NCBI GenBank assembly: GCA_003152695.1
Contig: PMAT01000052.1
Span: 1 to 33,255, forward strand
Source of the DNA: Acidobacteriaceae bacterium
GTDB lineage: Bacteria; Acidobacteriota; Terriglobia; Terriglobales; Acidobacteriaceae
Length of the DNA stretch: 33,255 bases
Reading direction: 5' to 3'
In this document: piece by piece, positions 5,314-25,709 of the stretch
Layout of the letters: every line of letters begins with the position of its first letter
Position numbering within the stretch: position 1 is the first letter of the stretch
Made by a program: the position numbers and the translations under genes
Notes under the pieces: generated by a model
What the model saw: the letters and a program-made list of their open reading frames with translations, nothing else
Told to the model about the DNA's origin: nothing
Database searches by the model: none

Positions 5314-7464
5314 GTGGTCCGACGCAATTTCTGCCGAGTGCATGCGTGGCGTTGTCCTGTCCTACTGGTAGTTTGCGTGTTTGCCCTTCGGGGCCCGGGT
5401 ATCGGACAGGAAACTCGCATTCCCCGGCAGCAGCCTCGAAATGCAGCGCTGCTGGGGACGGTCCACGACCAGGACGGGCGTCCAGTTCCCGGCGTCACGG
5501 TGCGTGCTGTCCATCGCGCTACCAGCAAGCTCTACACCACTACGTCCGACGCCGAAGGAATATTTCGCCTGTCGGACCTTCCTGCCGGGGAGTATGAACT
5601 CTCAGTTCAAGTTGAGGGAGTCGAGTCCACACCGGCAAGGCTGGCATTGTCCGCTGGGCAGATACAGTCAAGGGACATCCGTGTCGAAACCACACTCAGT
5701 CCAACACCCTTGAACGGCCCGAGCGGTTTGCCTGGTGCGGCGCGCTCTCTGCCGGTAACGGACGTTTCCTCAGGCAGTGTTTATCCGGGGATGCGCAGCC
5801 CGCAATCCGAATCGCCCTTGGCATTGCCGGAATTCGTTCCAACCCCTGCCGACAATTTCTCGCTGGAACCGTATCGCTGGACAGTTGCGATGCCCGCGTG
5901 GAAACGATACAAAACACCAGGCGACTATCCGTACGTTAAATCGCACTGGTACGACCCCTTCAACCGCAACCGCTGGAAGGGTGATTATCCAATTCTTGGT
6001 CAGCAGTGGTTCCTTAAGTTCACGGGCACGAGCTTCACGGATTTCGATCTGCGACGCTTGCCAACACCCAGCGGGCTAGGGTCCCAAAATCCGAACAGCC
6101 AGCAGTTTTTTGGCGGCGACCAGCAGACATCGGTGGGCCAAACCTTTCTCTTTTCCTTCAACCTTTTTCGTGGAGACACTTCATTCCGCCCGATTGATTT
6201 CCAGCTCCGCTTTACTCCTGCTGTCAATTTGAACTTCCTGCAGACGCAGGAACGCGGCATCGTCAACGTCAATGTTGAAGCGGGAACAAACCGATTCGAT
6301 GCGCATGTAGGTCTGCAAGAGGGGTTCTTTGAGTTAAAGCTGCACGACCTTAGTCCAAATTTCGACTTCGTGTCAGTCCGGGGAGGAATTCAGCAGTTCA
6401 CCAGCGACTTTCGCGGCTTCATATTTTCCGATGAAGAACCAGGAGTGCGCATCTTCGGCAATCTGCGTTCGAATCGCATCAACTACAACCTCGCTTATTT
6501 CTTCATGCTGGAGAAGGACACCAACAGCCATCTCAACACTTTCGCTGCCCGTGACCAGCAGGTAGAGGTCGCTAATGTTTATATCCAGGACTTCCTGACC
6601 AAGGGTTACACGACGGAGCTCTCCTTCCTTGCCAATCAGGACAACCCGTCCATTAAATTTGACACGAACGGATTTCTGGTCCGCCCCGCCCCCATTGGCA
6701 GCGTTGTCATCGCCAACGGAATACCGCAGCCGCACTCCATTCGCTCCTATTACCTGGGATGGACAGGCAACGGCCATATTAAGCGCTTGAACATGAGCAA
6801 CGCGTTTTACCAGGCGCTCGGCTATGATACCTTCAACACCATTGCCGGGCGCCGCGTGAACATCAACGGACAGCTGGCTGCATTGGAGTTGTCCATCGAT
6901 AAGGACTGGCTTCGTTTTCGGAGCTCAGTTTTCTATACCTCCGGCGACAGCTCAACCCGTATAGGTGCGTCGCGATCTGATACGGCGCGCGGATTCGATT
7001 CAATTCTTGACGACCAGCATTTCGCTGGAACCAGCTTCAGCTTTTGGGACCGCGAGAGCATTCCGCTCTCCAGTACAGGCGTGGCGCTGGTTACGCCTTC
7101 CAGTCTTATTCCCGACCTGCGTTCCAGTAAGTTCCAGGGCCAGTCGAATTTCGTAAATCCAGGGGTGCGTCTTTATAACGTGGGTGTAGACGCAGACCTG
7201 ACCCCCAAGTTGCGTGGCTTTGTAAATGCCAGTTACTTGCAGTTCGACCATACCCAGCCACTGCAGTTGGTGCTCTTTCAGCCGTCCATTAGCCGCAGTA
7301 TCGGGATGGATTTCGGGGCCGGCGTCAACTATCGCCCGCCTCTTTCGGAGAACATCGTGTTAACCACCGGCATTGACGCACTGGTTCCAGGTACGGGGTA
7401 CAAGGAAATTTACAACCCCCAAACGTTGTTGTCAGGGTTCGCCGGGCTGCGCTTCCAGTTCTAA
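5314..7464 (+). CDS. Outer-membrane beta-barrel protein with N-terminal carboxypeptidase-regulatory-like domain
   Basis: A 716-residue exported protein. A basic N-terminus and hydrophobic stretch (about 12-31) form a signal peptide. Residues 46-127 make a carboxypeptidase-regulatory-like (Cna-B type) beta-sandwich (LLGTVHDQDGRPVPGVTV ... LPAGEYELSV). From about 190 the sequence has alternating amphipathic strands with turn-rich loops, and the chain ends in RFQF, a C-terminal aromatic expected of barrel proteins inserted by BamA. The same N-terminal domain heads large TonB-dependent Oar-like receptors in Acidobacteriota, but this protein is much shorter and shows no obvious plug or TonB box. 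Start: GTG 5314 with AAAGGA six bases upstream. Only 28 bases separate it from the decaheme cytochrome gene, so the two are probably co-transcribed, suggesting the barrel hosts, anchors or exports that cytochrome. It lacks an MtrB-type N-terminal CXXC after the signal peptide. Confidence 0.75.
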   Translation: MVRRNFCRVHAWRCPVLLVVCVFALRGPGIGQETRIPRQQPRNAALLGTVHDQDGRPVPGVTVRAVHRATSKLYTTTSDAEGIFRLSDLPAGEYELSVQVEGVESTPARLALSAGQIQSRDIRVETTLSPTPLNGPSGLPGAARSLPVTDVSSGSVYPGMRSPQSESPLALPEFVPTPADNFSLEPYRWTVAMPAWKRYKTPGDYPYVKSHWYDPFNRNRWKGDYPILGQQWFLKFTGTSFTDFDLRRLPTPSGLGSQNPNSQQFFGGDQQTSVGQTFLFSFNLFRGDTSFRPIDFQLRFTPAVNLNFLQTQERGIVNVNVEAGTNRFDAHVGLQEGFFELKLHDLSPNFDFVSVRGGIQQFTSDFRGFIFSDEEPGVRIFGNLRSNRINYNLAYFFMLEKDTNSHLNTFAARDQQVEVANVYIQDFLTKGYTTELSFLANQDNPSIKFDTNGFLVRPAPIGSVVIANGIPQPHSIRSYYLGWTGNGHIKRLNMSNAFYQALGYDTFNTIAGRRVNINGQLAALELSIDKDWLRFRSSVFYTSGDSSTRIGASRSDTARGFDSILDDQHFAGTSFSFWDRESIPLSSTGVALVTPSSLIPDLRSSKFQGQSNFVNPGVRLYNVGVDADLTPKLRGFVNASYLQFDHTQPLQLVLFQPSISRSIGMDFGAGVNYRPPLSENIVLTTGIDALVPGTGYKEIYNPQTLLSGFAGLRFQF

Positions 7465-7492
7465 GGCCAGCCCGTTGTGGAGAAAGGACAGG

Positions 7493-10400
7493 ATGGCGGT
7501 TCGACTATCGGCGATCAAGCTGGCTGCCCTGGCCGCCGCGGTGCTCGTAATCGTGACGGTATCTGGCCGTTTCGTGCGACCGGCCATCGGCCAACCGGCG
7601 CACCCCGCAGAATCCGCCAGCTCGCAGGCGATGGCGGAGCAGCAGCCGCAGCTTCTGCTAATGCAAACCCAGGAGGAAGCCGACCGGAAATCAGCCGGAT
7701 GCAGGAGCTGCCACACTAAAACCGACAGCCAGACCATGCATCTCTCGCCCGCGGTCCGCTTGGGCTGCACGGATTGCCACGGCGGTAACCCGGACATTCG
7801 CGTCTCCAACGGCGTATCTGCGCAGTCACCGGAATATATTACTGCCAAGAACCAGGCGCATCTGCAGCCGCGTGTGTTGAGCAATAAACTGGATGGGGCA
7901 CTTCCGGTTCGTGCTTATACCGCGTGGCTCAGGGAAAATCCCGACTACATACGTTTTATCAATCCCGGAGACCTGCGTATCGCTGCGGCGACATGCGGGC
8001 GAGCCGGTTGTCATGTGTCCGAATTACAGAAAGTTCGGACCAGCATGATGTCGCATGGCGCCATGCTATGGGGAGCTGCCTTGTACAACAACGGTAGTTT
8101 TCTCCTGAAGAATCCGCATTTCGGAGAAAGCTACTCCACGAATGGCGAGCCGCAGCGCTTGATGAGCTTCCCGCCTCCTACGGCTGAGGAAACGCGCACC
8201 AAGGGAATCCTTCCCGACCTTCAACCTCTGGAACGATGGGAAATATCACAACCTGGAAATGTGTTGCGCATCTTTGAGCGCGGTGGGACTGAAAAGGCCG
8301 AGATTGGAAATCCTGAGCTCGGCGAAGACCCCGGCAAACCCGATGTCAAGCTCAGCGAACGCGGCTTTGGAACCAAGCTGCGCACCGACCCGGTTTTCCT
8401 CGGCCTGCAAAAAACACGGCTCCTGGATCCCCTTTTGTACCTGCCCGGGACAAACGACCAGCCGGGTGACTATCGAAACAGCGGTTGTAGTGCATGCCAT
8501 GTTATCTATGCCAACGACAGATCGGCAGAACACTCAGGACCCTACGCGCAATTTGGCCACTCAGGGTTCAGCGCGACGAACGATCCGACAATTCCAAAAG
8601 GCCACTCCGGATACCCCATCAAACACCAGTTCACTCGCGGAATTCCATCGAGTCAGTGCATGGTGTGCCATATGCATCCTGGCACCAACATGGTCACGAC
8701 TTACTTCGGATATACGTGGTGGGACAACGAAGTTGATGGCGAAAGGATGTATCCCACCAAGCAGCACAATCCCACTCCCGAAGAACAGCAACGCGTCGCT
8801 GTCCGCAATCCGGAAGGTGCAGCACCGAGGGGTCTATGGGCGAGTGTGCCTTTTCTGGAGAATGTCGGCAGCCCGGAGTTTCTGAGCACGCTGAAGTCAA
8901 CTCAGTTCGCCGATTTTCACGGCCATGGGTGGAACTACCGCGCCGTCTACAAACGCAATCGCGAAGGCGAACTTCTGGACAACAGTGGAGCGCCTATTTC
9001 GCCGGACGACCCCGACAAGTTCAAGAAGGCCGTGCACCTGACCGACATCCATCTGCAAAAGGGCATGCACTGCGTCGATTGCCATTTCCAGCAGGACAGT
9101 CACGGCAATGGGCGCCTTTACGGAGAGACGCGCAACGCGGTTGAGGTTGACTGCACCGACTGCCACGGCAGTATTCAGGCGCATGCGACCCTTAAGACCT
9201 CCGGTCCGGCGAAGCCCGAAGGCGGTACTGATCTCAGATTGCTACGAACGCCATGGGGCGACCAGCGCTTTTATTGGAAGGAAGGCCGGCTGTTTCAGCG
9301 GTCGATGCTGGATCAAAACCAGCAGTGGGAAGTCATACAGGTGCTGGACTCGGTCACTCCGGGTAATCCCAATTACAACGAGAAGGCACGCTTCGCCAAG
9401 ACGGTACGGATTGACGGCAAGACCTGGGGCAGCACCGCCGATGACGATGCTGCAAATCCATTGGCCCACCGCAACCAGCGCATGACCTGTTATAGCTGCC
9501 ATTCAGCCTGGATTCCCACCTGCTTCGGTTGTCATCTTGAAATGACGGCCAACCGAAAAATGCCCATGTTGCACAACGAGGGTCTGGTCACTCGTAACTG
9601 GACCTCTTACAGCTTCCAGATCCTCCGCGATGACATTTACATGCTCGGTGTGGATGGGACGGTTACCGGGCATCGCGTAGCGCCGGTGCGTTCGGCCTGT
9701 GCCGTTCTCGTCAGTTCGCAGAATTCAGATCGCGACTGGGGCTACTATCAGCAGCAAACCGTCTCCGCCGAAGGATTCAGCGGACAGGCTTTCAGTCCGT
9801 TCGTTCCGCATACCGTGCGAACCAAAGAAACTCGCACCTGCACCGATTGCCATGTGTCGAGCAGCGGTAATAACAATGCCTGGCTGGCGCATGTCCTGAT
9901 TCAAGGGACCGGCTTCATGAACTTCATGGGCCGTTACATCTACGTAGCGAACGGCAAAGGAGGGTATCATGCGGTGGCCGTTGCAGAACATAGCGAGCCC
10001 CCCGCCATCCTGGGCAGCGACTTCCAGAAAGTCGCCTATCCCGCAAACTACGAAGAACACATTAAGAACAAGAGCGAACTAAGAGAGGCGGATCACCACA
10101 ACGGGACAGTGCTCGACGTGCAAGCGCGCGGAGAATATCTCTATGCCGCAATGGGCGAGGGCGGTCTGCGCGTGTTTGACATCGCCAACATTGATGACAA
10201 AGATTTCTCAGAAAAAATGACCACCGCCCCTGTTTCGCCGCTGGGCCAGCGCTTCTACGTGAAGACCAAGTACGCTCAAGCGGTGGCATCTCCGACAACC
10301 CTCGGGGTAGATCCTCTGCGCACCCATCGTCCCGAGAATGAAGAGCAATCCGTTCACCTGTTTTATGGCTTTCTCTATGTGGCCGACAAATATGAGGGCC

Positions 10401-11362
10401 TGGTCATCGTGGGCAACCCGGACCTCAAGGCGAAGAGTCCGGGTGTGGGCACTCTCCTTGACGGCAACCCGAGCAATAACTTCCTGAAAAGAGCCTTGGC
10501 GTTTAATCCTGACGGGGCCTTGAATGGGGCTCGCCGCATCGCGTTTGCCGGAACGTATGCTTATATCCTTTGCGACCGGGGACTCGCGGTGGTTGATCTC
10601 GACACCCCGTTGCAGCCCAAGCTGGTGGCACAGATTGGGGCACCCGACCTGGACGAGCCGCGCGGCATCGCAGTTCAATTCCGCTATGCCTTCGTTGTCG
10701 ATCGCGCCGGCATGAAGGTCCTGGATATCACCAATCTGGCGCGACCCGCGCTGGTTCCTAACGTTCTCATTCCCCTCGTGGATGCTCGCAACATTTACGT
10801 GGCCCGCACCTATGCGTACATCTCGGCGGGTAGGCAGGGCATGGCGATTATCAATGTCGAAGCGCCGGAACGGCCTCAATTGGACCAGATGTTCGACGCG
10901 GGGGGCAAGCTGAACGACACGAATGACATCAAGATCGGCATGGTCAGCTCCAGCCAGTTCGCCTTCCTCGCCGATGGTCACAATGGATTGCAGGTAGTTC
11001 AGCTATTTTCGCCGCAGGCGACGCCGAACTTCTTCGGCTTCGCTCCCAAGCCCGTTCCCAAACTAATTGCCGGTTATAAGACCAAGGAACCTGCACTGGC
11101 CATCTCCCGCGGAATCGATCGCGACCGCGCCGTGGATGAGAGCGGACATCAGCTCGCCGTTTTCGGGCGCAGAGGCTCGCGCCCATTCAACCTCGAAGAA
11201 ATGCAGCGGCTTTATCTCCGTAACGGCAAGCTCTTCACGGTGACCGACAGTCCGCTGGGGCCCGCGGCAGAGCCGCCGATGCAGAAAAGCGCCGCACAGC
11301 CTCCAGCGTCCGCATCAGGTTCGGAGGTGCAGCAGGATGGGATGCAACAACAGCGCAGATGA
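7493..11362 (+). CDS. Secreted decaheme c-type cytochrome fused to LVIVD-repeat beta-propeller
   Basis: A 1289-residue exported multiheme cytochrome. The N-terminal hydrophobic segment (about 5-27) is a signal peptide or anchor; no lipobox is seen. Ten heme sites are visible: CXXCH at residues 70, 92, 332, 389, 527, 554, 666, 677 and 783, and one CX4CH (CGRAGCH) at 168. From about 860 to 1175, repeats ending in blocks such as GGLRVFDIAN, GLVIVGNPDL, GLAVVDLDTP, GMKVLDITNL, GMAIINVEAP and GLQVVQLFSP match LVIVD-type blades, giving a predicted propeller of roughly six blades. Start: ATG 7493 with AAAGGA upstream; the frame is open back to 7373, but that would overlap the previous gene by 92 bases and place 40 residues before the signal sequence. 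A role in periplasmic or cell-surface electron transfer is likely; donor and acceptor are unknown. It is convergent with the next operon, 54 bases away. Confidence 0.88.
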   Translation: MAVRLSAIKLAALAAAVLVIVTVSGRFVRPAIGQPAHPAESASSQAMAEQQPQLLLMQTQEEADRKSAGCRSCHTKTDSQTMHLSPAVRLGCTDCHGGNPDIRVSNGVSAQSPEYITAKNQAHLQPRVLSNKLDGALPVRAYTAWLRENPDYIRFINPGDLRIAAATCGRAGCHVSELQKVRTSMMSHGAMLWGAALYNNGSFLLKNPHFGESYSTNGEPQRLMSFPPPTAEETRTKGILPDLQPLERWEISQPGNVLRIFERGGTEKAEIGNPELGEDPGKPDVKLSERGFGTKLRTDPVFLGLQKTRLLDPLLYLPGTNDQPGDYRNSGCSACHVIYANDRSAEHSGPYAQFGHSGFSATNDPTIPKGHSGYPIKHQFTRGIPSSQCMVCHMHPGTNMVTTYFGYTWWDNEVDGERMYPTKQHNPTPEEQQRVAVRNPEGAAPRGLWASVPFLENVGSPEFLSTLKSTQFADFHGHGWNYRAVYKRNREGELLDNSGAPISPDDPDKFKKAVHLTDIHLQKGMHCVDCHFQQDSHGNGRLYGETRNAVEVDCTDCHGSIQAHATLKTSGPAKPEGGTDLRLLRTPWGDQRFYWKEGRLFQRSMLDQNQQWEVIQVLDSVTPGNPNYNEKARFAKTVRIDGKTWGSTADDDAANPLAHRNQRMTCYSCHSAWIPTCFGCHLEMTANRKMPMLHNEGLVTRNWTSYSFQILRDDIYMLGVDGTVTGHRVAPVRSACAVLVSSQNSDRDWGYYQQQTVSAEGFSGQAFSPFVPHTVRTKETRTCTDCHVSSSGNNNAWLAHVLIQGTGFMNFMGRYIYVANGKGGYHAVAVAEHSEPPAILGSDFQKVAYPANYEEHIKNKSELREADHHNGTVLDVQARGEYLYAAMGEGGLRVFDIANIDDKDFSEKMTTAPVSPLGQRFYVKTKYAQAVASPTTLGVDPLRTHRPENEEQSVHLFYGFLYVADKYEGLVIVGNPDLKAKSPGVGTLLDGNPSNNFLKRALAFNPDGALNGARRIAFAGTYAYILCDRGLAVVDLDTPLQPKLVAQIGAPDLDEPRGIAVQFRYAFVVDRAGMKVLDITNLARPALVPNVLIPLVDARNIYVARTYAYISAGRQGMAIINVEAPERPQLDQMFDAGGKLNDTNDIKIGMVSSSQFAFLADGHNGLQVVQLFSPQATPNFFGFAPKPVPKLIAGYKTKEPALAISRGIDRDRAVDESGHQLAVFGRRGSRPFNLEEMQRLYLRNGKLFTVTDSPLGPAAEPPMQKSAAQPPASASGSEVQQDGMQQQRR

Positions 11363-11416
11363 GCGGCAGCAATTTGTTGCACAGTGGCGGGGCAGATGTA
11401 TCACGTGCGGTGGACT

Positions 11417-12820
11417 TCAGTTACCGGCCCGCAAGGCATTGAGATCGAACTTGCCCTTGAGCGGTTGTTCCTTGCGCCAATCATGATAGCTGTGGCATTC
11501 ATAGCACCGGCCTTCGGCAGCCGCTTGCATCGCCCCAGCCTCTTTGTGACATCTGCGGCAGGTCTCAATTCCGGGCAGATTGACTTCAGCCGTTTGTCGG
11601 CTCTCCAATATCCGGGAGTGGCAAGACTCGCAGGTCATCATGCGATGGGCTGGATGGTCGAATTCAGCGTGAAGAAGCCAGCGAGCCGGAATTACCGCCT
11701 TGACGGAGGTCGGTAGCTTGTCGCTTTCGCCCGTTGTCTGGCTGTGGCATACTTTGCAATCTTTTCTCCACAGCAACCGTTCGGCAATCTCTGTCCGCTG
11801 CTCTGCCCAGTTCGCGGGCGTTGTCGGAGCCTTGGGAAGAACCAGGTAATCGCGGGCGGGACGCAGAAAATTGCGTGCGGCCTCGATCTGGTCTCCGTAT
11901 CCGGCAGTTATGGGTTTGTGGACTAAGCCCGGATTCTCTTTGACCAACTGCTTTATCTTTTCCACGATGAAGGCGCGCACAATCTCCGGCTTATCGTGCG
12001 GCGCTGGCTGAGATATCAGTGGATCGAATTGCAATATATGGCAGGCGGCGCATTGATTCACATACTTGAGGCGCGCCATGTAAGGCCCCGCCCCGGTTTC
12101 CGTAAACCTCTTCCTTGGCTGTTGTGTCTCAGCCGCGGAAACCACGGCTGGCTGCTGACTGGCGGCTGGCACCGCGGCAACGGAGTAAGGCCAAGGCTGG
12201 TTGACGCCGACCGGCCGGTGACAATCGCTGCATTGCATCTGCACCGGCCCGTTAGGCCCGCGTAACGTGGGCTGCAGGTGAGCGTGATGGTTCAGGTTGA
12301 TCGTCCCGGGATCATATTGGCCGTGCCGCAAAGGGAGAAACTGAGGATGTTTGTTATCGAAATCCGAGACATGCGGGTCGAACTTCAACTCTCCTTCTTT
12401 AACGTGCAGGCTGGCGTGGCACTGACCACAGGCTGCATCGGTCGTGGCCGCCATTTTGAACTTACCCTTGTGCTCCAGATGGCAGGAACTACAGGCAGGC
12501 GTAAAAGCCTGTTGTGCGTTATGAATCGGAGCGTTATGGCAGGCGAGACACGCCTTGTCTCCCACGGCAGCGCTAAAGCTTGCGCCTCGTACGTGGCATA
12601 GGTTGCAATTCTGGCCGAACACGGCGTGTGCCGACGACACTGGACCGCTACTATAAATCGCGCGATTACCCGATGCCTTTTCCCCCAGCAGCCATCCCAC
12701 CGCAAGGAGTGGGACGATTATGGAGAGCACAAGCCGCCACCGCCGAAACCCATGCAGCCGGGTGAAGTACTGCAAGTCGATTCGTGTCGCTAAGGTTTTG
12801 GCTGTTCTGACGCGTGGCAC
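11417..12820 (-). CDS. Membrane-anchored decaheme c-type cytochrome
   Basis: A 467-residue protein with a single N-terminal transmembrane segment (about 28-46, after a basic stretch) and a periplasmic domain holding ten CXXCH heme sites, at residues 72, 91, 110, 131, 197, 257, 355, 397, 421 and 439. It is the last gene of the four-gene minus-strand operon: the preceding stop and this GTG start are three bases apart, and GAGGT lies eight bases before the GTG, inside the upstream gene. Its place after a diheme-b-like membrane protein suggests it takes electrons from, or gives them to, that protein on the outer face of the cytoplasmic membrane, much as CymA/NrfH-type or Geobacter Cbc cytochromes do. 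It is not clearly a member of the NapC/NrfH family: the heme spacing and the long inter-heme segments (201-256 and 261-354) differ. Confidence 0.9.
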   Translation of the reverse strand: MPRVRTAKTLATRIDLQYFTRLHGFRRWRLVLSIIVPLLAVGWLLGEKASGNRAIYSSGPVSSAHAVFGQNCNLCHVRGASFSAAVGDKACLACHNAPIHNAQQAFTPACSSCHLEHKGKFKMAATTDAACGQCHASLHVKEGELKFDPHVSDFDNKHPQFLPLRHGQYDPGTINLNHHAHLQPTLRGPNGPVQMQCSDCHRPVGVNQPWPYSVAAVPAASQQPAVVSAAETQQPRKRFTETGAGPYMARLKYVNQCAACHILQFDPLISQPAPHDKPEIVRAFIVEKIKQLVKENPGLVHKPITAGYGDQIEAARNFLRPARDYLVLPKAPTTPANWAEQRTEIAERLLWRKDCKVCHSQTTGESDKLPTSVKAVIPARWLLHAEFDHPAHRMMTCESCHSRILESRQTAEVNLPGIETCRRCHKEAGAMQAAAEGRCYECHSYHDWRKEQPLKGKFDLNALRAGN

Positions 12821-12823
12821 AGG

Positions 12824-13747
12824 TCAATACCTCAGTGCTATTACAGCGTGAACTGCACCCAGCAGAAGCAAGGCATACGACGCAGGTATATGCACCAGGA
12901 GCCAGCCGTGCAGCAGTCGATGCAATACTCGCTGCCGATCCAGTTCGCGTTTTTCCTCACAAATATTCTCCAGGTCCTTCAACCGGGGCCAGGAATCCTC
13001 GGGGCACAGGATCCGGAACTGCTGGAACATCGCGGAAGCCCGCTCCTTGTCCGCCAACACTCGACCCCGCCCGCTGTGCTGAACCAGATACGGTTTTATC
13101 TCGTCATCAAAAAAACTGTGCAGCGTAGCGGCAAAGGGTTCATCGACCCCGATGGCAGAAGCGAAAGTAACTCCGCCCATGGTTCCGGCAGACGCAGCTT
13201 CTGCACGCTGTTGCGGGTTGGCGTGCTCCAGGTCGCCTTCCAGCGCCGAAAGCAGTTCGGTCACAGCATCTGTTGCCTCCGTAGCCAGCTGCGCGCAGAC
13301 ATGATCAATTTGCTCGTAAACCGTCTCCATTGGCACGCGAGTCGTAATCACGCGCGGAAGAAAGTGCTGCAACATGGCGCCGACAATTCCGCTGACTATG
13401 ACGAAGATGAACAGCACCATCAGCGTGCGCGTAAGCGGAGCTGCGCCCAGGCTGAACCCTGAATGGAAGAGAATGAATGGAAAGCTCAGCAGTCCCAGCC
13501 AGAGATGCCCGCGCATCCAGCTTGTCGCGCGTCCTACACGCCATACCGGAAACTTCTTCCTGGCGCCCAGAAGTCCCGCGAACAGCATCAGCGCCGAGCC
13601 CATGCTCCCATAGACAATTCCCATCGCGCTGCCGCCACGAGGTCCCTGGACGGCAACCAGTGCATACGGAATATAGACGACGAGCCCCAGCCCGAGGGCC
13701 ACCATAGTAACCGCAATCCAGACGCGATGCGTGGAGTCAATGAGCAC
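12824..13747 (-). CDS. Integral membrane diheme cytochrome-b-like protein
   Basis: A 307-residue membrane protein with about five hydrophobic helices (near 10-32, 43-61, 81-101, 108-128 and 282-303) and a soluble segment of about 150 residues between helices 4 and 5. His81 and His95 lie in helix 3 and His286 and His300 in helix 5, both pairs 14 residues apart, the pattern expected when two helices bind two b hemes stacked across the membrane. His280 is extra. The fold may be ferric-reductase-like or NapC-independent quinol/b-type, but I do not recognise the family by name. GTG 13747 begins one base after the stop of the iron-sulfur gene, with AAAGG eight bases upstream. Its position between a cytoplasmic iron-sulfur protein and a periplasmic decaheme cytochrome fits a trans-membrane electron conduit. 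Confidence 0.78.
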   Translation of the reverse strand: MLIDSTHRVWIAVTMVALGLGLVVYIPYALVAVQGPRGGSAMGIVYGSMGSALMLFAGLLGARKKFPVWRVGRATSWMRGHLWLGLLSFPFILFHSGFSLGAAPLTRTLMVLFIFVIVSGIVGAMLQHFLPRVITTRVPMETVYEQIDHVCAQLATEATDAVTELLSALEGDLEHANPQQRAEAASAGTMGGVTFASAIGVDEPFAATLHSFFDDEIKPYLVQHSGRGRVLADKERASAMFQQFRILCPEDSWPRLKDLENICEEKRELDRQRVLHRLLHGWLLVHIPASYALLLLGAVHAVIALRY

Positions 13748-13748
13748 A

Positions 13749-15929
13749 CTATTCGCCTTTCTTTAGTGTGGTATCGCTCTGCCGGGCAAGGTAGGCGAAG
13801 AATTGGCTGGGATTGACGCGATGCGCCGCGTCGTGCGGACACGCGTACACGCAGCTCGGCTCGTCATAGTCCAGGCAGAGGTTGCAGGCGGTGGCTTTGC
13901 TTTGCACCTTTGCGATCTTGCGGCCAGGCCGGGAAAGATCTTCGACTTGAACCTGGAACGGATGCATATTGATATTTCCGTAGGGACAGTTGCTGGCGCA
14001 CATTCCGCAACCAATACACCAATCCTCAATGACCATCTCGAGGCTGTTTTTGCGCCGGATCGATCCCACCGGACAGCCGACCATGCAAAGCGGGTCTTTA
14101 CACTGCCGGCATGAGGTCGCAATCAGATATTTGTCGAGGCGCAAGCCTTCGCGGATGAGGCGGCTGACGCCATCGTGCGCGTCGGCGCAGGCACGCACGC
14201 ACTGGTCGCATCGGGTACAGCGTTGCAAATCGAGCACCAGCAGGCTCTGTGCCTCCATCAGTCCCTGCGCCAGGAAAGAATCAATCGGCGCCGTGCGGAT
14301 GGTAGTGAGCCGAGCACGATTTTCCGCAAGTCGCTGCTGCGCCACGACCTGCAAGTCTTGCTTGACCGCAGGGAACTGCTCCATCATCACCCGGAAGTCG
14401 TCGGCCGCAATCCGGACCGCTTCTACGTGATCAAGGGCGGTGCAGGTCGCCGTGTACATGCCGGCGCCCAGCAACCCGATTTCACCGAGGAAGCCCGACC
14501 GCCCGATATAACCCAGAACCAGATCTCCACCCGGATGAGACTGCGAAACCTTGACGAAACCCAGGCGTACGAGGAAGAAGCTGTCGGAGTGCTCGCCCTC
14601 GTGACAGAGGACTTGTCCTGCTGCATAGCGCCGCAACTCGACCCGCTCGCGCAGATAGTCGATGAACTCAGGGGTGAGGGAAGCGAACAGCGGAATGCTC
14701 CGCAGGTGGTTTTCCAGTGCTCGCTTGCGATAGTTGAGTTCGACCCTCTCGCGGAATGACTTGTTGCGTTGCAAGATGTCGAGTACATTCCGCAACATCT
14801 CCAGCATCGTGCAATCCGTTTTGGCGCGGACCGTGGCGGAACGCGGATAGAAGCTCATGCAGGTCATCTCGCCGAAGAGGTCGCCCGCAACCAACTCAGC
14901 GATGGGATTGTCGTAGGGCAGATCAACAGGAGCATCAATCGGTATGAAGGCGCGCTCACTCCTGGCTTCGCGGGTATGCGCTTGACCGGTGAGGCTGGAC
15001 TTCAGCCTCTTGAAGAAGCCACCCTGGTCGGCCTTCGTCGAGACATGGGCCATAGGGCTGGAGAGAAAAACCTCGCATGTCCCCGCTAGTATGTAAAAAG
15101 CAGTGGAGCCATAGTCGCCTTCGCGGCAGATGATTTCGCCAGCCTTGAAGTGCCTCTTATGCACTGCGTCGCTGTTCAGGCTGAGAAATGTTCCCGACAC
15201 GTTCTGGAACATCTCGAGTAGCTGTAGTTCCTCGATGGGTACCGCGGTACCGGGGAGATCGGTTGCGATTTCCTTTTTCTTGTTGACCAGCGCCCCCGTG
15301 GGACAGGAAACCATGCACTCCCCACAACTGACGCAGGTCGATTTGCCCATGGGAAGATTTTCATCAAAAGCGATGCCAGCCTGGTAGCCTTTGCCCCTGC
15401 GGGCGAGAACAAAATTGTGCCGAATCTCGCTGCAACCGCGAATGCAACGCTCGCACAAGATGCAGGAGTCGTGATCGACGGCGATCGAGGCCGAGGAATC
15501 GTCGTGTCCGCGTGGTGTGGGCAGGCCAGGATAGCGGGAGGCGGTGAGACCTGCCTGGCTTGCAAGGTGCTCCAACTCGCAGTCGTGCGTAAGTTGCTGC
15601 CGCTGGCAGGGCGTTGGATGGTCCGCCATCAGCAACTCCAGGAGGGTGCGGCGAACCCCAGCCACATCTGCCGTCGAGGTCTTCACGACCATTCCAGGTT
15701 CAACCTGTCGAACGCACGATGCGGCGTAGACACGCTGTCCAATATCCACGACACACATCCGGCAAACTCCCACCGGAGTTTCATTTTGTTGATGACAAAG
15801 GGTTGGAATGGGAATCCCGGAGATGCGTGCGGCGTCGAAGATTGTCGTTCCGGCCGGGACAACAACCTCCCGCTGATCAATCGTGAGCTTTACACCCGGA
15901 AAATCCCTTGCTGTGCCCGGGGCGACCAC
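13749..15929 (-). CDS. Multi-cluster iron-sulfur protein with two cyclic-nucleotide-binding domains (NuoG-N/cNMP/cNMP/DmsB-like fusion)
   Basis: A 726-residue predicted cytoplasmic electron carrier. Domains in order: NuoG/HoxU-like [2Fe-2S] (Cys45, 56, 59, 72); N3-type His-Cys region (His104, Cys108, Cys117) where the expected middle Cys is Gln111; two [4Fe-4S] motifs (Cys156-159-162-166 and 199-202-205-209); cNMP domain 1 at about 243-388 with an insertion of some 50 residues and a phosphate-cassette-like GEMTCMSFYPRSATV including Arg363; cNMP domain 2 at about 410-543 lacking that Arg; then four [4Fe-4S] motifs of DmsB/NrfC style at 571-581, 607-619, 638-648 and 682-697. The C-terminal module usually hands electrons to a membrane subunit, as the next gene supplies. 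Start: GTG 15929 overlaps the upstream TAG (TAGTG). The frame is open to 16100 (57 more residues), but that lies inside NuoEF coding sequence; ATG 15971 is an alternative. Confidence 0.88.
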   Translation of the reverse strand: MVAPGTARDFPGVKLTIDQREVVVPAGTTIFDAARISGIPIPTLCHQQNETPVGVCRMCVVDIGQRVYAASCVRQVEPGMVVKTSTADVAGVRRTLLELLMADHPTPCQRQQLTHDCELEHLASQAGLTASRYPGLPTPRGHDDSSASIAVDHDSCILCERCIRGCSEIRHNFVLARRGKGYQAGIAFDENLPMGKSTCVSCGECMVSCPTGALVNKKKEIATDLPGTAVPIEELQLLEMFQNVSGTFLSLNSDAVHKRHFKAGEIICREGDYGSTAFYILAGTCEVFLSSPMAHVSTKADQGGFFKRLKSSLTGQAHTREARSERAFIPIDAPVDLPYDNPIAELVAGDLFGEMTCMSFYPRSATVRAKTDCTMLEMLRNVLDILQRNKSFRERVELNYRKRALENHLRSIPLFASLTPEFIDYLRERVELRRYAAGQVLCHEGEHSDSFFLVRLGFVKVSQSHPGGDLVLGYIGRSGFLGEIGLLGAGMYTATCTALDHVEAVRIAADDFRVMMEQFPAVKQDLQVVAQQRLAENRARLTTIRTAPIDSFLAQGLMEAQSLLVLDLQRCTRCDQCVRACADAHDGVSRLIREGLRLDKYLIATSCRQCKDPLCMVGCPVGSIRRKNSLEMVIEDWCIGCGMCASNCPYGNINMHPFQVQVEDLSRPGRKIAKVQSKATACNLCLDYDEPSCVYACPHDAAHRVNPSQFFAYLARQSDTTLKKGE

Positions 15930-17602
15930 TACATCACCGCCGCGGGCTGAAAGCAAACACCAGCGGGGCATCGCTTTCGATTCAGGTGATCTTCGATTAC
16001 TTGCGGAAAGTGCTGCATCACCGAGGTTATTGGCGCCGGCACGATTTGCCCTAAACCGCATATGGAGGTCATGCGCATCGCTTGGAACAGTTCGTCGCAC
16101 AACTGCTTGTCGTCCGGCTTGGACTCACCCGATGACCAAGCCGACAGGATGGTCACCAACTTCTGCGAGCCCACGCGGCACGGGACGCACTTGCCGCATG
16201 ATTCATTGCGGAAGAAGCGAACTGAATTCAAGGCCATGTCGAGCATGCAGCGGTTGTCCGCGCAAACCACGATGGCGCCGGAACCCACCATTGAGCCGGC
16301 ATCCGCGACCGCCTTAAAGTCCAACGGCAAATCCAGCATCGAGGCAGGCAGGTATCCAGAGGATGGTCCCGAAGGTGCAAAGGCTAGCAAAGTCCTGCCA
16401 TCGACCACACCCCCCGCATAGTTAAAAATAAGTTTGCGGTACGAGGTTCCCATCGGCACCTCGAATACTCCCGGACGTACGACGTCACCGCTGACGCCTA
16501 CGAATTTCAGCCCTGTGGATCCATTCACCCCCTGGGCCTTGAACCATTCAACTCCGCGGACCAAAATAGCGGCCGCGAAGATGAAGGTCTCGACGTTGTT
16601 GATCACCGTGGGCATGTTCCACAACCCGTTGGTTCCGGGGAAGGGTGGCTTGTTGCGAGGTTCGGCGCGCTTACCTTCCAACGCCTCCAGCAACGCACTT
16701 TCCTCGCCGCAAATATATCCGCCGGGGCTGACGAAGATTTCCAGGTCGAAGGTGCGACCACTACCCAATATGTCTTTGCCCAAAATCCGCTCGCGATAGC
16801 ATCGCTCGATTTCCTTCTGCAGCACTTCTCTGGGCTCTTCATATTCGTGTCGAATGTAGAGATAGCCTTTCTTAGCGCCGGTCACCAGTCCAGCCAGAAC
16901 CATCCCTTCAATGACCAGGTACGGGAGATGCTGCATGATAAAGCGGTCTTTTATCGTCCCAGGTTCGCTCTCGTCGGCATTGCAGACAATGTACTTCTGT
17001 TTTCCTGCCGCATTGCGCACGATCTCCCATTTCAAGCCTGTAGGAAAGCCTGCGCCTCCCAGACCGCGCAACCCGCTGGCTTTGAGGGTCGCGATCACTC
17101 CCGCGTAATCGGAAGTTTCCAAAAAGCGCTTGACCGCCCGGTATTCGCCGAAACCACCGTAGGGATCAGTACCCAACGGCTGCGCAGGTTGCACCCGGTC
17201 CGATAGGGTCTGCTTTGGCGCAGAAGCCCCGCTCCGAAGCAATTCGACAATTTCGTCTATCGGCAACCCGGCATAAATTTGATCATTGACCGAAAATGCG
17301 GGAGCACTGTCACATCGCCCCAGGCAGGACACATCGCGAAGCGTGAACTCATCGGAGGTTTTGTTCCGAAATACCTCGCGTAATCTAGCCTGCAAGTGGG
17401 GAGCGCCTCGCAGGTGGCACGTCATGTCGGTGCAGACACGCACATCCAGTTTTGGCGGTGGCGTAAGCCGGAAGTGAGGGTAGAAACTGATGACGGTATG
17501 AATCTGGCTTACCGGTATTTTCAGGCGTTGGGACACCCGGTGCAATTGCTCGACGGGAAGATAACCGAACTCCCGCTGGATGGCTCTGAGCTCATCGAAC
17601 AC
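15929..17602 (-). CDS. NuoE-NuoF fusion: NAD(P)H-oxidising flavin/iron-sulfur subunit
   Basis: A 557-residue diaphorase that should carry FMN and exchange electrons between NAD(P)H and iron-sulfur clusters. The NuoE-like part (about 1-125) has [2Fe-2S] ligands Cys57, 62, 93 and 97. The NuoF-like part has the FMN/NADH loop GLRGLGGAGFPTGLKW at 177-192, NADESEPGT near 208, ICGEESALLEALEGKR near 297 and [4Fe-4S] ligands Cys469, 472, 475 and 515. The chain ends with CPAGVC (545-550), a linker seen in diaphorase subunits that continue into a ferredoxin domain (HydB/HndC type), but the ferredoxin is absent. Start: GTG 17602 has GAGGGG six bases upstream and matches the usual NuoE beginning; TTG 17680 would add 26 residues without a good ribosome site. 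First gene of the operon. No other complex I subunit and no hydrogenase or formate dehydrogenase catalytic subunit is in the window. Confidence 0.93.
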   Translation of the reverse strand: MFDELRAIQREFGYLPVEQLHRVSQRLKIPVSQIHTVISFYPHFRLTPPPKLDVRVCTDMTCHLRGAPHLQARLREVFRNKTSDEFTLRDVSCLGRCDSAPAFSVNDQIYAGLPIDEIVELLRSGASAPKQTLSDRVQPAQPLGTDPYGGFGEYRAVKRFLETSDYAGVIATLKASGLRGLGGAGFPTGLKWEIVRNAAGKQKYIVCNADESEPGTIKDRFIMQHLPYLVIEGMVLAGLVTGAKKGYLYIRHEYEEPREVLQKEIERCYRERILGKDILGSGRTFDLEIFVSPGGYICGEESALLEALEGKRAEPRNKPPFPGTNGLWNMPTVINNVETFIFAAAILVRGVEWFKAQGVNGSTGLKFVGVSGDVVRPGVFEVPMGTSYRKLIFNYAGGVVDGRTLLAFAPSGPSSGYLPASMLDLPLDFKAVADAGSMVGSGAIVVCADNRCMLDMALNSVRFFRNESCGKCVPCRVGSQKLVTILSAWSSGESKPDDKQLCDELFQAMRMTSICGLGQIVPAPITSVMQHFPQVIEDHLNRKRCPAGVCFQPAAVM

Positions 17603-17725
17603 CGAGATCCCCCTCAGGCAATGCCTCAACCGTCCGGGCGTCTCCACGGCGTAGGTCCAACCGTAAGCACACCCGGCCAACGGTGCTCACTGTCAAGCTA
17701 ATGTCGCGGGATTGTATCCCACCGG

Positions 17726-17740
17726 ACAGCGGCTGTACAG
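17726..17740. promoter_or_regulatory. Overlapping palindromes in the divergent promoter region
   Basis: ACAGC-G-GCTGT (17726-17736) overlaps the perfect palindrome CTGTACAG (17733-17740), between the divergent NuoEF operon and the pentaheme cytochrome gene. Such nested symmetry may be an operator controlling both directions. TTGACA also occurs on the minus strand at 17696-17691 as a possible -35 element toward NuoEF, without a convincing -10. No regulator family is assigned. Confidence 0.25.
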
Positions 17741-17889
17741 TACGAAATGCGCGGAATTTTGGCTGGCAAACCACCCCTAACCCCAAACTTTTTCCCTCGC
17801 GTACGCCGAATAGGTGTAGAGTACGAAGCCATCAGTCCGACATCTCTTGGCGCGGTAAGAAAGCGTAGTTGCAGCCAGGGCAAACAACT

Positions 17890-19281
17890 ATGTGCATCAA
17901 GAGCATTCTGCGCATTCCGTACTTGGCATCGTTGACAGCGACGGTCCTCATCATCGCGGGCGTGGTAAGTGTTGCCCTCGGGCAAAGTCCTTCTCCTCAA
18001 TCGAGTGATGTGGGGAAGTTCAACGGTCCCGGTGCGTGTGCCGCCAGCAGTTGTCATGGTGGCGTGCAGCCCAAGAACACCACCCGAATCTTGCAGAACG
18101 AGTTTAGTATCTGGGCGGCCCAGGACAAACACGCCCGTGCTTACACTGTCCTATCGAATCCTGTGTCTCTGCGTATGGGCAGGATGTTGCAGCCCCCCGT
18201 CGAACAGCCCAACAAGTCGCCGAAATGCCTCGCTTGTCACGTCTTGTTTGTGCCCGAGAATTTGCGGGCTACAACTTTCAAACTTGACGATGGAGTCAGT
18301 TGCGAGAATTGTCATGGGCCGGCTGCGGGCTGGCTCGGTTATCACACCACCAACGACTGGCAATACGAAACAGCGGTCAACAAACTGGGAATGTACGATG
18401 CCCGCGACCTCGTCAAACGGACGGAACAGTGCCTAACTTGCCATGTGGGTACTGCTGATAAGCAGGTCGATCACGAGATGATCGCCGCCGGCCATCCCGA
18501 TCTGACTTTCGAACTCGATTCCTTCAGTGCGGCCATGCCGCGGCACTGGAAAACCAATCGCGAGAACAATACCCCATGGTTTGGCGTGCAGGAGTGGGCG
18601 GTCGGTCAGGCGGTGCAATTGAACAAGTCGCTGCAACGAGTGAGTCGCCGCGCTCTCAGTTCGAGCTGGCCGGAATACGCAGAGCTGGATTGTTTCGCCT
18701 GCCACCACTCCCTGACTGCACCGGCTGATAGCTGGCGGCTTACAACGACTGAGTACTACCAAGGACGCCGCGCAGGCGTCCCCGCCTGGAATGCTTCGCG
18801 ATATGTCGTGTTCCGGTACTTCGCGGAGGTAGTGGATCCGAAGGCCGCGGGACAAATGGAGAAGGAACTGGACCATTTGGCGCTGCAGTTTGCTAAATGG
18901 GATCGGCCGAACGAGATTTCCTCAACTGCACTCAGCGCAGCCTCAACCGTTGACCAATTGGCGCAGCAGATTCGCACACAGCGCTACGATCCGGACCTGA
19001 CTGCGCGAATCATGCTCAAGATCGTTGGCAACGGAGAGACCATAGCCAACTCGGGGGAACGCGCAGCAGAACAGGCAACCATGGCTATCGATTCTCTCTT
19101 CATCGCCTACACGGCGAATACCAAGCTGCCCAATGAGGCGGAGTTGCGGGCGGCCATCAAAACGCTGTTTTCACAGTTGCAAAATCCTTCTGCGTACAAT
19201 GCCGTGCAGTTCAGGGCGCAATTGCTGAAGGTTCAAGCATTGTTACCGCATTCTTCACAGGGCGCAAATGGGCTCCGGTAG
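17890..19281 (+). CDS. Secreted pentaheme c-type cytochrome (cytochrome c554-like)
   Basis: A 463-residue exported cytochrome. Residues about 5-31 form a signal peptide, with likely cleavage near ALGQ. Five heme sites are visible: one CX4CH (CAASSCH) at 50-56, then CXXCH at 113, 138, 181 and 268. The HGGV after the first site and the CENCHGP block resemble the cytochrome c554 group found in several multiheme proteins. The C-terminal third has no heme motif and looks helical. Start: ATG 17890 with AGGG nine bases upstream; TTG 17869 would add seven residues. It is transcribed divergently from the NuoEF operon across 287 bases, so shared regulation is plausible. Possible roles are a periplasmic shuttle between the two decaheme proteins or a terminal reductase of an unidentified small molecule. 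Confidence 0.86.
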   Translation: MCIKSILRIPYLASLTATVLIIAGVVSVALGQSPSPQSSDVGKFNGPGACAASSCHGGVQPKNTTRILQNEFSIWAAQDKHARAYTVLSNPVSLRMGRMLQPPVEQPNKSPKCLACHVLFVPENLRATTFKLDDGVSCENCHGPAAGWLGYHTTNDWQYETAVNKLGMYDARDLVKRTEQCLTCHVGTADKQVDHEMIAAGHPDLTFELDSFSAAMPRHWKTNRENNTPWFGVQEWAVGQAVQLNKSLQRVSRRALSSSWPEYAELDCFACHHSLTAPADSWRLTTTEYYQGRRAGVPAWNASRYVVFRYFAEVVDPKAAGQMEKELDHLALQFAKWDRPNEISSTALSAASTVDQLAQQIRTQRYDPDLTARIMLKIVGNGETIANSGERAAEQATMAIDSLFIAYTANTKLPNEAELRAAIKTLFSQLQNPSAYNAVQFRAQLLKVQALLPHSSQGANGLR

Positions 19282-22034: not shown

Positions 22035-22119
22035 CTGTTGGGTCGGATTGCGTTGAAACTGCTCGTGCTTGCGTCAAAAAGGGCAGTACTGCAGAGTGCA
22101 TAAGCATGGAGGTCTGCTG

Positions 22120-22854: not shown

Positions 22855-22995
22855 GGTAGCGCAACGAATTATTCCAGAGTTGGAAAGCCAGGTTGAACCC
22901 AAGCCAGCGAATTACAGTTCAACCAACAACCTGATCGGGCGCTACCGGCGGGACCAGTAATCGTCCAACAACGCTGGCGAGAAAGGGAGTCAACG

Positions 22996-24152: not shown

Positions 24153-25709
24153 CTAATCGGTCGGATTGCGTGGGAACTTCAGATACGGCAGCCGGACGCC
24201 AGCATCGATAATCTGATCTGCCCGGATATTGGGAGGTGCTTCAAATCCCGAGGAACCGCCCGAGGTGACGTAGTCGTCCTGATCGACGCCGTCACCGCTC
24301 ACGCCCAATCCACCGATTAGCTGTCCGTTGCGATACAGTCCCACGCTGCCCGGAAAGAAAACAATCCCGCTTTGCTTGGGGCCCGGCGGTTGCGACCCTT
24401 GGGAACAAGGATTCTTGACATCGTTGACATATAGCTGAAAGAACGGACCGTTCGGGGAGCCATCGATGCCGGGGGGGTAGAGAGGCTGTGCTCCGAAGCC
24501 GATGGTACGGTTTGTGGACGCCGTGCCCACAGGTACTCCCGGCATGTCCGCTGGATTAAGCTGCTGGCTGTCGACGTACGTCATGTTCCGCGCCTTCGAT
24601 ACGGCCACGTCAATGCTGAACACGGTTGCATCGGGCATGCGGTACAAAGCCAGTACGGTACCGTCCAGATCGGCGACAGAAATCACCATTTTCGTGCGTT
24701 GCCCAATGGGAAGCCTGATGACAGCACGCGTCACACTCGCTGTGTTGACTGCGTTCGTCACGATCGATTGGACCTCCGCGGCAGTCAGCCCACCGAGGGG
24801 TCCGGCCCGCGCAGTAACCAGATAACCTTCAGGCACCGCTCCGGGGCTGTCGACCGGCCCTGCCACATAGCTGCCCGTGTAGTTTGGATCGGGAGAAAAG
24901 CCGGACGGCAGTGACGTCTGCAGCACGAAGGGTACAGTAATACCGTTGATCACAACGGCACCCGGCGCCGGAAACGTGGGCAGCGGGGTGAGGGACTGGG
25001 TCGCACCGGAATAGGCGGCAAACTCCGACACCTCCGGAGTCGATCCCGCAACTCCTACCCCTCCCACTACCTCGCCGTTCTTAAAAATCGGTACGCCGCC
25101 AGGATTCACGGCAGTCTGGTTGCTGTCGGCAACATCGACTTTGCCGGTAATGATGCCCAACCCGGTCGATCCATTCATTGTTCTTGCGGGGGGCACCGAC
25201 TGTCCGGGCGCGAAATCATCGCTCATGGTGCAGCCCCGGTTCGTGTTTTCGATACCGTAGAGCGCCGCATTTGGAGTGTTCATAATTCCCGGCGGGAAAT
25301 GGATGCCGCTCAGGAAGCGAACCGTTCGCGATGACAGCGGGGCCTGGTCATTGCTAAAGAAGGCGGCGGTCCTGGCCAGTGCAACTGCCAACTCATTGGC
25401 ATCGACCACGACACTGAAATCTGCCACCGCCGTCGCCGGCGCACCGGTCTTCCGAAACACCCCCAGCACCCGGCCAGCGCGGTCCGAAACGGCAATGACC
25501 AAAGGATCGGACGCCGAAGCGGCAGCCGCGCTGATCACGCTTTGCACTTCGGCCTGAGTCAGATGTTGGGCGTCAGTAGGGCCCAGAACCGGAGGATCGT
25601 TGGCAGGTGTCTCCTGCGAAGACGAGGAACTGCCTCCGCCACAACCGAGGCAAATCACAAGCAAAGCGAGCGGAACCCCCATCTTCCATCTTGTACCCGG
25701 AAAGTTCAT
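24153..25709 (-). CDS. Putative lipoprotein with two GlcG/HbpS-like (DUF336) domains
   Basis: A 518-residue exported protein. The N-terminus has a basic start, a hydrophobic core and CLGCGGGSSSSS, a lipobox-like site with an atypical Cys at -3, followed by a flexible Ser stretch. Two similar halves each begin with LTQAEVQSVI or LTAAEVQSIV, continue with IAVSDRAGRVLGVFR or ISVADLDGTVLALYR and end with a glycine-rich GEVVGGVGVAGS or GQLIGGLGVSGD block, so the gene is an internal duplication of the GlcG/HbpS fold. HbpS of Streptomyces binds heme and relatives are often called heme-binding; binding here is unproven. GGAGG is six bases before the ATG. Convergent with gnd. Whether it serves the nearby cytochrome system is unknown. 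Confidence 0.78.
   Translation of the reverse strand: MNFPGTRWKMGVPLALLVICLGCGGGSSSSSQETPANDPPVLGPTDAQHLTQAEVQSVISAAAASASDPLVIAVSDRAGRVLGVFRKTGAPATAVADFSVVVDANELAVALARTAAFFSNDQAPLSSRTVRFLSGIHFPPGIMNTPNAALYGIENTNRGCTMSDDFAPGQSVPPARTMNGSTGLGIITGKVDVADSNQTAVNPGGVPIFKNGEVVGGVGVAGSTPEVSEFAAYSGATQSLTPLPTFPAPGAVVINGITVPFVLQTSLPSGFSPDPNYTGSYVAGPVDSPGAVPEGYLVTARAGPLGGLTAAEVQSIVTNAVNTASVTRAVIRLPIGQRTKMVISVADLDGTVLALYRMPDATVFSIDVAVSKARNMTYVDSQQLNPADMPGVPVGTASTNRTIGFGAQPLYPPGIDGSPNGPFFQLYVNDVKNPCSQGSQPPGPKQSGIVFFPGSVGLYRNGQLIGGLGVSGDGVDQDDYVTSGGSSGFEAPPNIRADQIIDAGVRLPYLKFPRNPTD

Follow-up and report, generated by a model that had tools for sequence, protein, structure and literature searches.

How might a bacterium hand electrons from cytoplasmic NADH (reduced nicotinamide adenine dinucleotide) to acceptors beyond its outer membrane, and must its quinone pool take part in doing so? 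The question is raised by seven genes lying at positions 5314 to 19281 of a contig from a soil-type Acidobacteriaceae bacterium (PMAT01000052.1, assembly GCA_003152695.1), all 33,255 nucleotides of which constitute what is here called the window. A first-pass annotation, made from the letters alone, had viewed those genes as a complete-looking conduit from cytoplasmic NAD(P)H (i.e., NADH or its phosphate, NADPH) across both membranes. Here it is argued that the system is real and conserved, and that it is probably a direct, NADH-fed export line, that is, a new kind of front end on a known kind of conduit. As a rough probability, 0.6 seems appropriate for the locus encoding a multi-protein NADH:extracellular electron export line.

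The locus and its parts

All seven open reading frames (ORFs) are found at the coordinates that follow, arranged as the first-pass annotation had described, and the modules which it named (NuoEF fusion, iron-sulfur carrier, membrane protein, cytochromes) are confirmed as open genes there.

5314..7464, + strand: outer-membrane-type protein, with a signal-peptide-like N-terminus, a CarboxypepD_reg (Ig-like) domain (PF13620, 1.1e-17), a predicted beta-barrel, and Phe as last residue
7493..11362, + strand: secreted decaheme cytochrome, nine CXXCH plus one CX4CH, with a C-terminal LVIVD beta-propeller (1e-20) and partial likeness to ExtM
11417..12820, − strand: inner-membrane-anchored decaheme cytochrome, ten CXXCH, with one N-terminal hydrophobic helix
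12824..13747, − strand: 307-residue membrane protein, predicted diheme b cytochrome, with His81/His95 and His286/His300 on two hydrophobic helices
13749..16100 (ORF limits), − strand: cyclic-nucleotide-binding (cNMP) iron-sulfur (Fe-S) protein, with a HoxU/NuoG-like N-terminus, two cNMP domains, and a DmsB-like C-terminus
15929..17680, − strand: NuoE-NuoF fusion (NuoEF), i.e., 2Fe-2S thioredoxin-like, flavin mononucleotide (FMN)/NADH, and 4Fe-4S parts
17869..19281, + strand: secreted pentaheme cytochrome of the cytochrome c554 family, four CXXCH plus one CX4CH

The outer-membrane-type and decaheme-propeller genes, on the + strand, converge on a − strand operon which is ordered NuoEF, cNMP-Fe-S protein, membrane protein, and anchored decaheme cytochrome, with the pentaheme gene divergent from NuoEF. 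Matches in Pfam and NCBIfam bear out the NuoE, NuoF, HoxU/NuoG-type, cNMP and DmsB-type 4Fe-4S modules; neither the membrane protein nor the barrel part reaches a family of these databases above cut-off. The window's own genome (G000) is 4.5 Mb, and its closest public relatives are metagenome-assembled genomes of Acidobacteriota.

Linkage across two phyla

Do these genes belong together? Loci were picked by matches to the membrane protein, and all counts are conditional on that choice. At a threshold of 1e-5, 66 of the 396 Acidobacteriota genomes searched have a match and 330 have none; in ten of the 66, the window's own genome among them, the match is a close one (E below 1e-60). In Planctomycetota, 54 of 294 genomes match at 1e-8, and contexts were examined for 19 of those 54 (20 places), mostly the closest. 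The 107 loci which result, window included, leave out two repeats (L043 of L008, and L103 of L014) as well as one match with stop codons that was not fetched (G121:C3); L046 is counted twice, for its two family members. Loci cut by contig ends are scored as being without those parts which are not seen.

Among the 13 nearest public loci, the genes for Fe-S protein, membrane protein, and anchored decaheme cytochrome are adjacent in all 13. NuoEF is found in 10, the pentaheme and propeller cytochromes in 9 each, and the outer-membrane protein in 7. Where NuoEF is missing, two contigs start inside the Fe-S gene, and the remaining locus, of Planctomycetota (L014), is without it. In L009, L010 and L013 the propeller cytochrome and outer-membrane gene are not seen despite 3.5 to 8.5 kb of further contig. 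Over the wider family, 104 of 107 loci have, within ~10 kb, a gene with at least three CXXCH, and 81 have a cNMP-Fe-S protein, which forms a single chain with the membrane protein in 22 of the 107. NuoEF, cNMP-Fe-S protein and membrane protein thus are recurrently linked across two phyla, rather than being the unrelated neighbors that would have told against the first-pass annotation. One apparent fusion, of membrane protein with cytochrome in L049, gave no clean alignment and was not used.

Some relatives combine the membrane protein with still more hemes. That is, in a branch which is free of cNMP domains (L024, L026-L028, L033-L037, L061, L064, L075, and further L086, L092, L093 and L095), the membrane protein stands beside cytochromes with 19-53 CXXCH, and a ferredoxin-YpdA gene is often nearby. 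A family represented by L064 11537-13570 (678 residues in L064, whose member has no Pfam match at 0.01) recurs beside this branch in L064 and nine other loci.

An exchangeable NAD(P)H end

Of the 107 loci, 20 have NuoEF. A HoxU-like [2Fe-2S] part is found in 19 loci, all 19 of which have NuoEF, and conversely 19 of the 20 NuoEF loci have the HoxU-like part. These counts are from a strict search, an iterated profile having matched the DmsB-like part as well; in the strict search one NuoEF-bearing locus (L122) gives no match and three (L117, L119, L120) give weak ones. In those three loci, which are of Planctomycetota, the pair of NuoEF and Fe-S protein stays together, apart from the membrane gene.

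In other loci a different flavoprotein is found. A TrxR/YpdA-like protein lies within ~10 kb in 50 of 107, for which the chance expectation is ~1 locus (29 matches over ~48 Mb in eight whole genomes), a rough figure as the profile behind the 50 is looser than the TIGR04018 used for the eight genomes, and those genomes are system-bearing. In seven loci (L052, L053, L055, L057, L079, L081, L082) the Fe-S protein itself begins with this flavoprotein; elsewhere the Fe-S protein is short or the YpdA-like domain is in a separate gene. One or the other NAD(P)H flavoprotein, NuoEF or YpdA, is near in 70 of 107. A tree of 43 rows (L009 omitted) requires three changes in NuoEF presence (3-5 over bootstraps), of which strongly supported branches force only one, making repeated gain or loss of NuoEF likely.

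The best evidence for pyridine-nucleotide input and for a membrane-crossing path comes from 13 loci in which a single chain holds, in order, an FHA domain, a transmembrane helix, seven c-heme motifs, a second transmembrane helix (above threshold in 10 of the 13), a ferredoxin domain (holding an eighth CXXCH), and a YpdA domain. Such chains tie an NAD(P)H flavoprotein to hemes that should be periplasmic. Gene content, motif conservation, linkage and fusions are direct observations. Because of linkage over two phyla, pairing of NuoEF with HoxU, exchange of flavoproteins, and these natural fusions, there is strong support for regarding the set as a single functional unit between cytoplasmic NAD(P)H and periplasmic or outer-membrane cytochromes.

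A probable route from NADH to the inner membrane

How would electrons enter? The NuoEF protein (583 residues) matches PF01257, PF01512 and PF10589 above cut-off, i.e., the full NADH-binding module of NuoEF and HydB/HoxF. Its best solved relatives in the PDB are HydB proteins (3e-114) from electron-bifurcating or related hydrogenases, followed by NuoF. Electron-bifurcating HydB carries additional ferredoxin domains, plus a hydrogenase or second low-potential partner. No Fer4 domain is found by Pfam in the 583 residues here. Similarly, the best [FeFe] hydrogenase match of the Fe-S protein covers its N-terminal Fe-S part (70-276), and Pfam finds no hydrogenase catalytic domain in that protein.

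The N-terminus of the Fe-S protein is HoxU/NuoG/HydA-like, with ligand sets for one [2Fe-2S] and two [4Fe-4S] clusters, and its C-terminus, following the two cNMP domains, has four complete DmsB-type [4Fe-4S] sets. Of the 'up to eight' centers first proposed, seven thus have full ligand sets. The eighth is doubtful: within the nearest group, its His-ligated N5 motif has lost the second Cys in every row that bears HoxU (14 of 14). In the first cNMP domain FGEM and PRSATV, which resemble the usual phosphate-binding cassette, are kept in 22 of 22 rows (this count, like that for N5, concerns the 22 rows of the nearest group rather than all 81 Fe-S-protein loci). The true start of the protein is probably further in, near ORF residue 43-70. 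It has no strongly hydrophobic segment, which fits a cytoplasmic location.

For the membrane protein a PDB profile search gave a single chance match (E 0.74). Its family has 107 members, some of them only weakly similar, and every one keeps both His81 and His95 (107 of 107). Counting those rows which have a residue at the position, His286 is kept in 102 of 103, and His300 in all 101. His276 and His280 are variable. The conserved histidines form two H-x13-H pairs, a spacing as found in diheme b cytochromes, and pairs so nearly invariant fit the prediction that this family consists of transmembrane diheme b cytochromes. Subthreshold Pfam matches of 14 members are most commonly to DUF4405 (8), ferric reductase (2) and cytochrome b561 (2). 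As to topology, loop 61-81 has six Lys/Arg and no Asp/Glu and therefore, by the positive-inside rule, should be cytoplasmic. The large loop at ~131-275 is then predicted to be cytoplasmic as well, with one His of each helix toward each face and the Fe-S side in the cytoplasm.

Multiheme cytochromes and the outer membrane

The 25 c-type heme sites of the first-pass annotation are borne out by motif count: ten in the propeller cytochrome (nine CXXCH, one CX4CH), ten in the anchored decaheme protein, and five in the pentaheme protein (four CXXCH, one CX4CH). The two CX4CH sites probably are real, since most full-length relatives have them too, and where a propeller cytochrome lacks CX4CH it carries ten CXXCH instead. 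For the propeller cytochrome the start was taken to be the ATG at 7493, which precedes a hydrophobic N-terminus. This protein matches the ExtM model NF040943 at 7e-27 and 94 bits, far under the cut-off of 800, and matches the ExtN and ExtO models more weakly, also below cut-off; it has no PDB profile-search match at 0.001. The anchored decaheme protein has weak NCBIfam matches to QrcA and HmcA, and the pentaheme protein has matches, all sub-cut-off, to the DmsE family and an MtrC/MtrF domain.

The first-pass barrel is only weakly supported: in the model of the outer-membrane protein, 16 candidate strands, alongside an N-terminal Ig-like domain, could form a barrel, but its confidence (predicted local distance difference test, pLDDT) is 46. 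Searches of Pfam and NCBIfam give no MtrB-type match. The family of this protein occurs in 34 loci, window included.

An additional partner came from unbiased clustering of the reading frames of all loci:

24153..25709, − strand: secreted lipoprotein-like protein with two HbpS/GlcG stretches (PF03928, 3.9e-18)

This family is found in 30 loci, window included, of both phyla. In 13 of the 30 the outer-membrane gene is the nearest recognized partner of the HbpS gene, within 332 bases; in the others a different system gene is nearer or the gap is larger. The window's copy is 4.9 kb past the pentaheme gene and outside of the coordinates that the first-pass annotation considered, a recurrent part which it had therefore missed. 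By eye, its signal sequence has a lipobox-like end, and the product is possibly a heme-binding outer partner.

A proposed path, and what weighs against it

Putting these parts together, NuoEF would, by homology, oxidize NADH at FMN in the cytoplasm. Electrons would then pass from the NuoF and NuoE clusters to the HoxU-like [2Fe-2S] and ferredoxin clusters, and from these to the four-cluster DmsB-like domain, steps suggested by homology and in an order which, like heme ligation, docking and gating, we infer. The inner membrane would be crossed on two b hemes, judging from invariance and topology, with His81/His286 toward the cytoplasm and His95/His300 toward the periplasm. From there electrons would go to the anchored decaheme cytochrome, and then to the outer-membrane protein and the secreted decaheme-propeller protein; the pentaheme protein and HbpS lipoprotein may serve as accessory carriers or receptors.

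Electrons that leave the cytoplasm, which is the negative side, for the positive periplasm are assisted by membrane potential. Outward oxidation of NADH should therefore be downhill on both counts, i.e., as favored by membrane potential and by redox potential, and such a line could deliver electrons to the outside at lower potentials than the quinol pool allows, the price being NADH and charge. An ungated line would drain the cell of both, and this may be why sensor domains are found within the carrier: cNMP domains here, or FHA domains in other variants, would gate the line, which is plausible. In this arrangement the usual quinone step possibly is bypassed. A broader proposal, that this is an unnamed, two-phylum family of sensor-gated, quinone-free NAD(P)H:multiheme-cytochrome oxidoreductases which have interchangeable NAD(P)H modules and act as a very-low-potential export valve, is more tentative, and is offered with the odds leaning against it.

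Bypass of complex I, as suggested by the first-pass annotation, fits what is found. No domains of NuoD, NuoB, NuoI or proton-pumping subunits are seen in the seven proteins, and contig C89 of the genome carries its best NuoD together with a second NuoF, the pair most likely belonging to its complex I. No NuoF is found in the genome beyond that copy and the locus's own. Two further NuoD-like genes are present (G000 C8:35692 and C89:49824).

A number of points count against the export line. Neither NuoEF nor YpdA is within ~10 kb in 37 of 107 loci. Some of these are cut by contig ends; L047, L113 and L118 lie inside longer contigs, however, so the core can be fed by another donor. The outer-membrane protein and propeller cytochrome are each within ~10 kb in just 34 of 107, and across the wider family most of the fetched stretches show no outer-membrane half. 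Thus the first-pass path stands well as one unit but is less constant over its outer half. Sensor domains are not universal, 23 distant relatives being without a nearby cNMP-Fe-S protein, and in the window itself the usual phosphate-binding Arg of the second cNMP domain (~residues 530-560) is lost (1 of 22 rows), being Tyr there alone and Arg in the 21 other rows. Near-copies were retained (e.g., L005-L007, L107/L110, L108/L109, L114/L115, L029/L070/L072) and inflate locus counts. The model of the outer-membrane protein is poor and the AlphaFold model of the membrane protein is weak (pLDDT 69), with Foldseek and VIA-align, as applied to the latter, returning mostly unrelated helical proteins and nothing useful. 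There may be a quinone site on the b subunit. Finally, the argument as a whole is one from sequence, that is, from gene content, conservation and linkage.

Alternative readings

Could quinone be involved after all? The diheme b protein might exchange electrons with menaquinone, in which case the system would be an NADH:quinone reductase or a quinol:cytochrome oxidoreductase, with NuoEF as a side branch. Diheme b subunits commonly hold quinone sites, the subthreshold kinship to DUF4405, ferric reductase and cytochrome b561 is in keeping with this, and the 37 loci with neither NuoEF nor YpdA nearby are as would be expected. Furthermore, the inner-membrane entries to outer-membrane conduits which PMC6295460 compares, so far as its available text goes, are quinol oxidases or quinone reductases. 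A system of this sort would somewhat resemble CbcL, or else those Rieske/b complexes of anammox bacteria that include an NAD(P) oxidoreductase. Arguing otherwise are the Fe-S carrier near 81 of 107 loci and the NAD(P)H flavoprotein near 70, both fusible to the core, along with a genome that most likely has complex I already. Of the alternatives this is the one to take most seriously, though it is unlikely.

Doubtful as well is that the line serves a specific extracytoplasmic reductase, e.g., of an oxyanion or nitrogen oxide by way of c554-like or ExtM-like cytochromes, rather than general export. The propeller cytochrome indeed is partly ExtM-like, the divergent one belongs to the c554 family, and ExtI of the Ext operon affects selenite and tellurite reduction according to the available portion of PMC5877670. 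The ExtM match nevertheless reaches 94 bits against a cut-off of 800, and no substrate site was identified in this set. The Ext cluster's products, moreover, include a Rieske protein (ExtO) and a cytochrome b (ExtP), with no NADH arm listed in that same portion of PMC5877670.

Reverse flow, the other direction that the first-pass annotation had allowed, would carry electrons inward from an extracellular donor, making NADH. The same parts would serve, and NuoF-type enzymes are reversible. Generation of NAD(P)H has been proposed for anammox complexes, as described in the accessible part of PMC12954380. Such flow would have to run from the positive to the negative side against membrane potential, and uphill in redox terms to ~-320 mV, with no bifurcating or proton-linked step, or other energy input, visible; though the best solved relatives of NuoEF are HydB proteins, the ferredoxin domains found in HydB are absent from it. 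Reverse flow is improbable.

Least probable by far is that these are independent electron-transfer genes, neighbors by chance or shared regulation, since even though such modules occur in other proteins too, and outer-membrane genes are in only 34 of 107 loci, the two-phylum linkage, the fusions and the co-occurrence of NuoEF with HoxU-like parts largely refute this for the inner-membrane part.

Likeness to known systems

No paper describing this gene set was found among the open-access literature (subscription papers being outside of the search), consistent with the first-pass statement that it is not a described complex; nor was a match found to a characterized one. Hmc, Tmc and Qrc likewise place multiheme c, membrane and Fe-S subunits across one membrane, and differ in having another membrane subunit and no known NADH module or outer-membrane part. 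HydABC, HoxEFU and NuoEFG share NuoE, NuoF and HoxU/NuoG-type clusters with the present locus, whereas here no hydrogenase, formate dehydrogenase or complex I domain is attached, and the HoxU-like part runs on instead into cNMP and DmsB-like domains.

In CymA, CbcL/MtrH/MtoC, and ImcH with Mtr/Pcc, an inner-membrane cytochrome likewise feeds periplasmic and outer-membrane multihemes, and in CbcL nine c-heme motifs accompany a diheme b-like domain (PMC6295460, available text). Compared with the CymA, CbcL and ImcH entries as presented there, the present locus encodes a cytoplasmic NADH module and a long Fe-S carrier along with the b subunit. Nearest in logic are the anammox Rieske/b complexes (Kuste4569-4574, Kustd1480-1485), whose parts are an NAD(P) flavoprotein (negative side), Fe-S centers, b hemes, and multiheme c (positive side), according to the accessible part of PMC12954380. 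Here, by comparison, NuoEF replaces the enzyme that uses flavin adenine dinucleotide, and there are cNMP domains and an outer-membrane-type gene, neither of which is mentioned for anammox in that part of PMC12954380. The Geobacter extHIJKLMNOPQS cluster shares porin, multiheme cytochromes, b cytochrome and an ExtM-like cytochrome with this locus; it differs in its rhodanese and Rieske protein, and no NADH arm is listed for it (PMC5877670, available portion). Unlike in the anammox and Ext systems, no Rieske domain is found by Pfam in the seven proteins.

Why would this matter? In the systems that PMC6295460 treats, again as far as its available text goes, it is the quinol pool that feeds extracellular electron transfer. 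Were NADH to feed the line directly, the ways in which export can be energized would change, and acceptors of lower potential could come within reach of the cell. Acidobacteriota and Planctomycetota would then have an export route open to testing gene by gene and, with sensor domains inside the carrier, one could test directly how a respiratory 'wire' is regulated.

Flanking genes

The cluster is flanked, at 2452-4032 and 22069-24015, by genes for glucose-6-phosphate dehydrogenase, a polyphosphate-glucokinase-like protein, and a short 6-phosphogluconate dehydrogenase, the last being above cut-off for both TIGR00872 (NAD-dependent) and NF007161 (NADP-named). These three (zwf, glucokinase, gnd) were considered as system members and dropped: in the fetched flanks zwf recurs in two loci and the others in none. 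The gene for a glycoside hydrolase at 19338 is shared with just 7 near relatives, which looks like local synteny. Adjoining the outer-membrane gene, at 4172-5002, is a metallo-beta-lactamase-fold gene which matches a cyclic-nucleotide phosphodiesterase model (NF041851, 8e-14, sub-cut-off) and matches RNase Z better; it has a homolog in the flanks of L049 only.

At 31694-32980, 12 kb from the system, is a class III adenylate/guanylate cyclase with an FHA domain, for which there is no homolog in the fetched flanks of relatives. A system with cNMP domains in its carrier, and with FHA domains in its variants, is here found near an FHA-cyclase gene.

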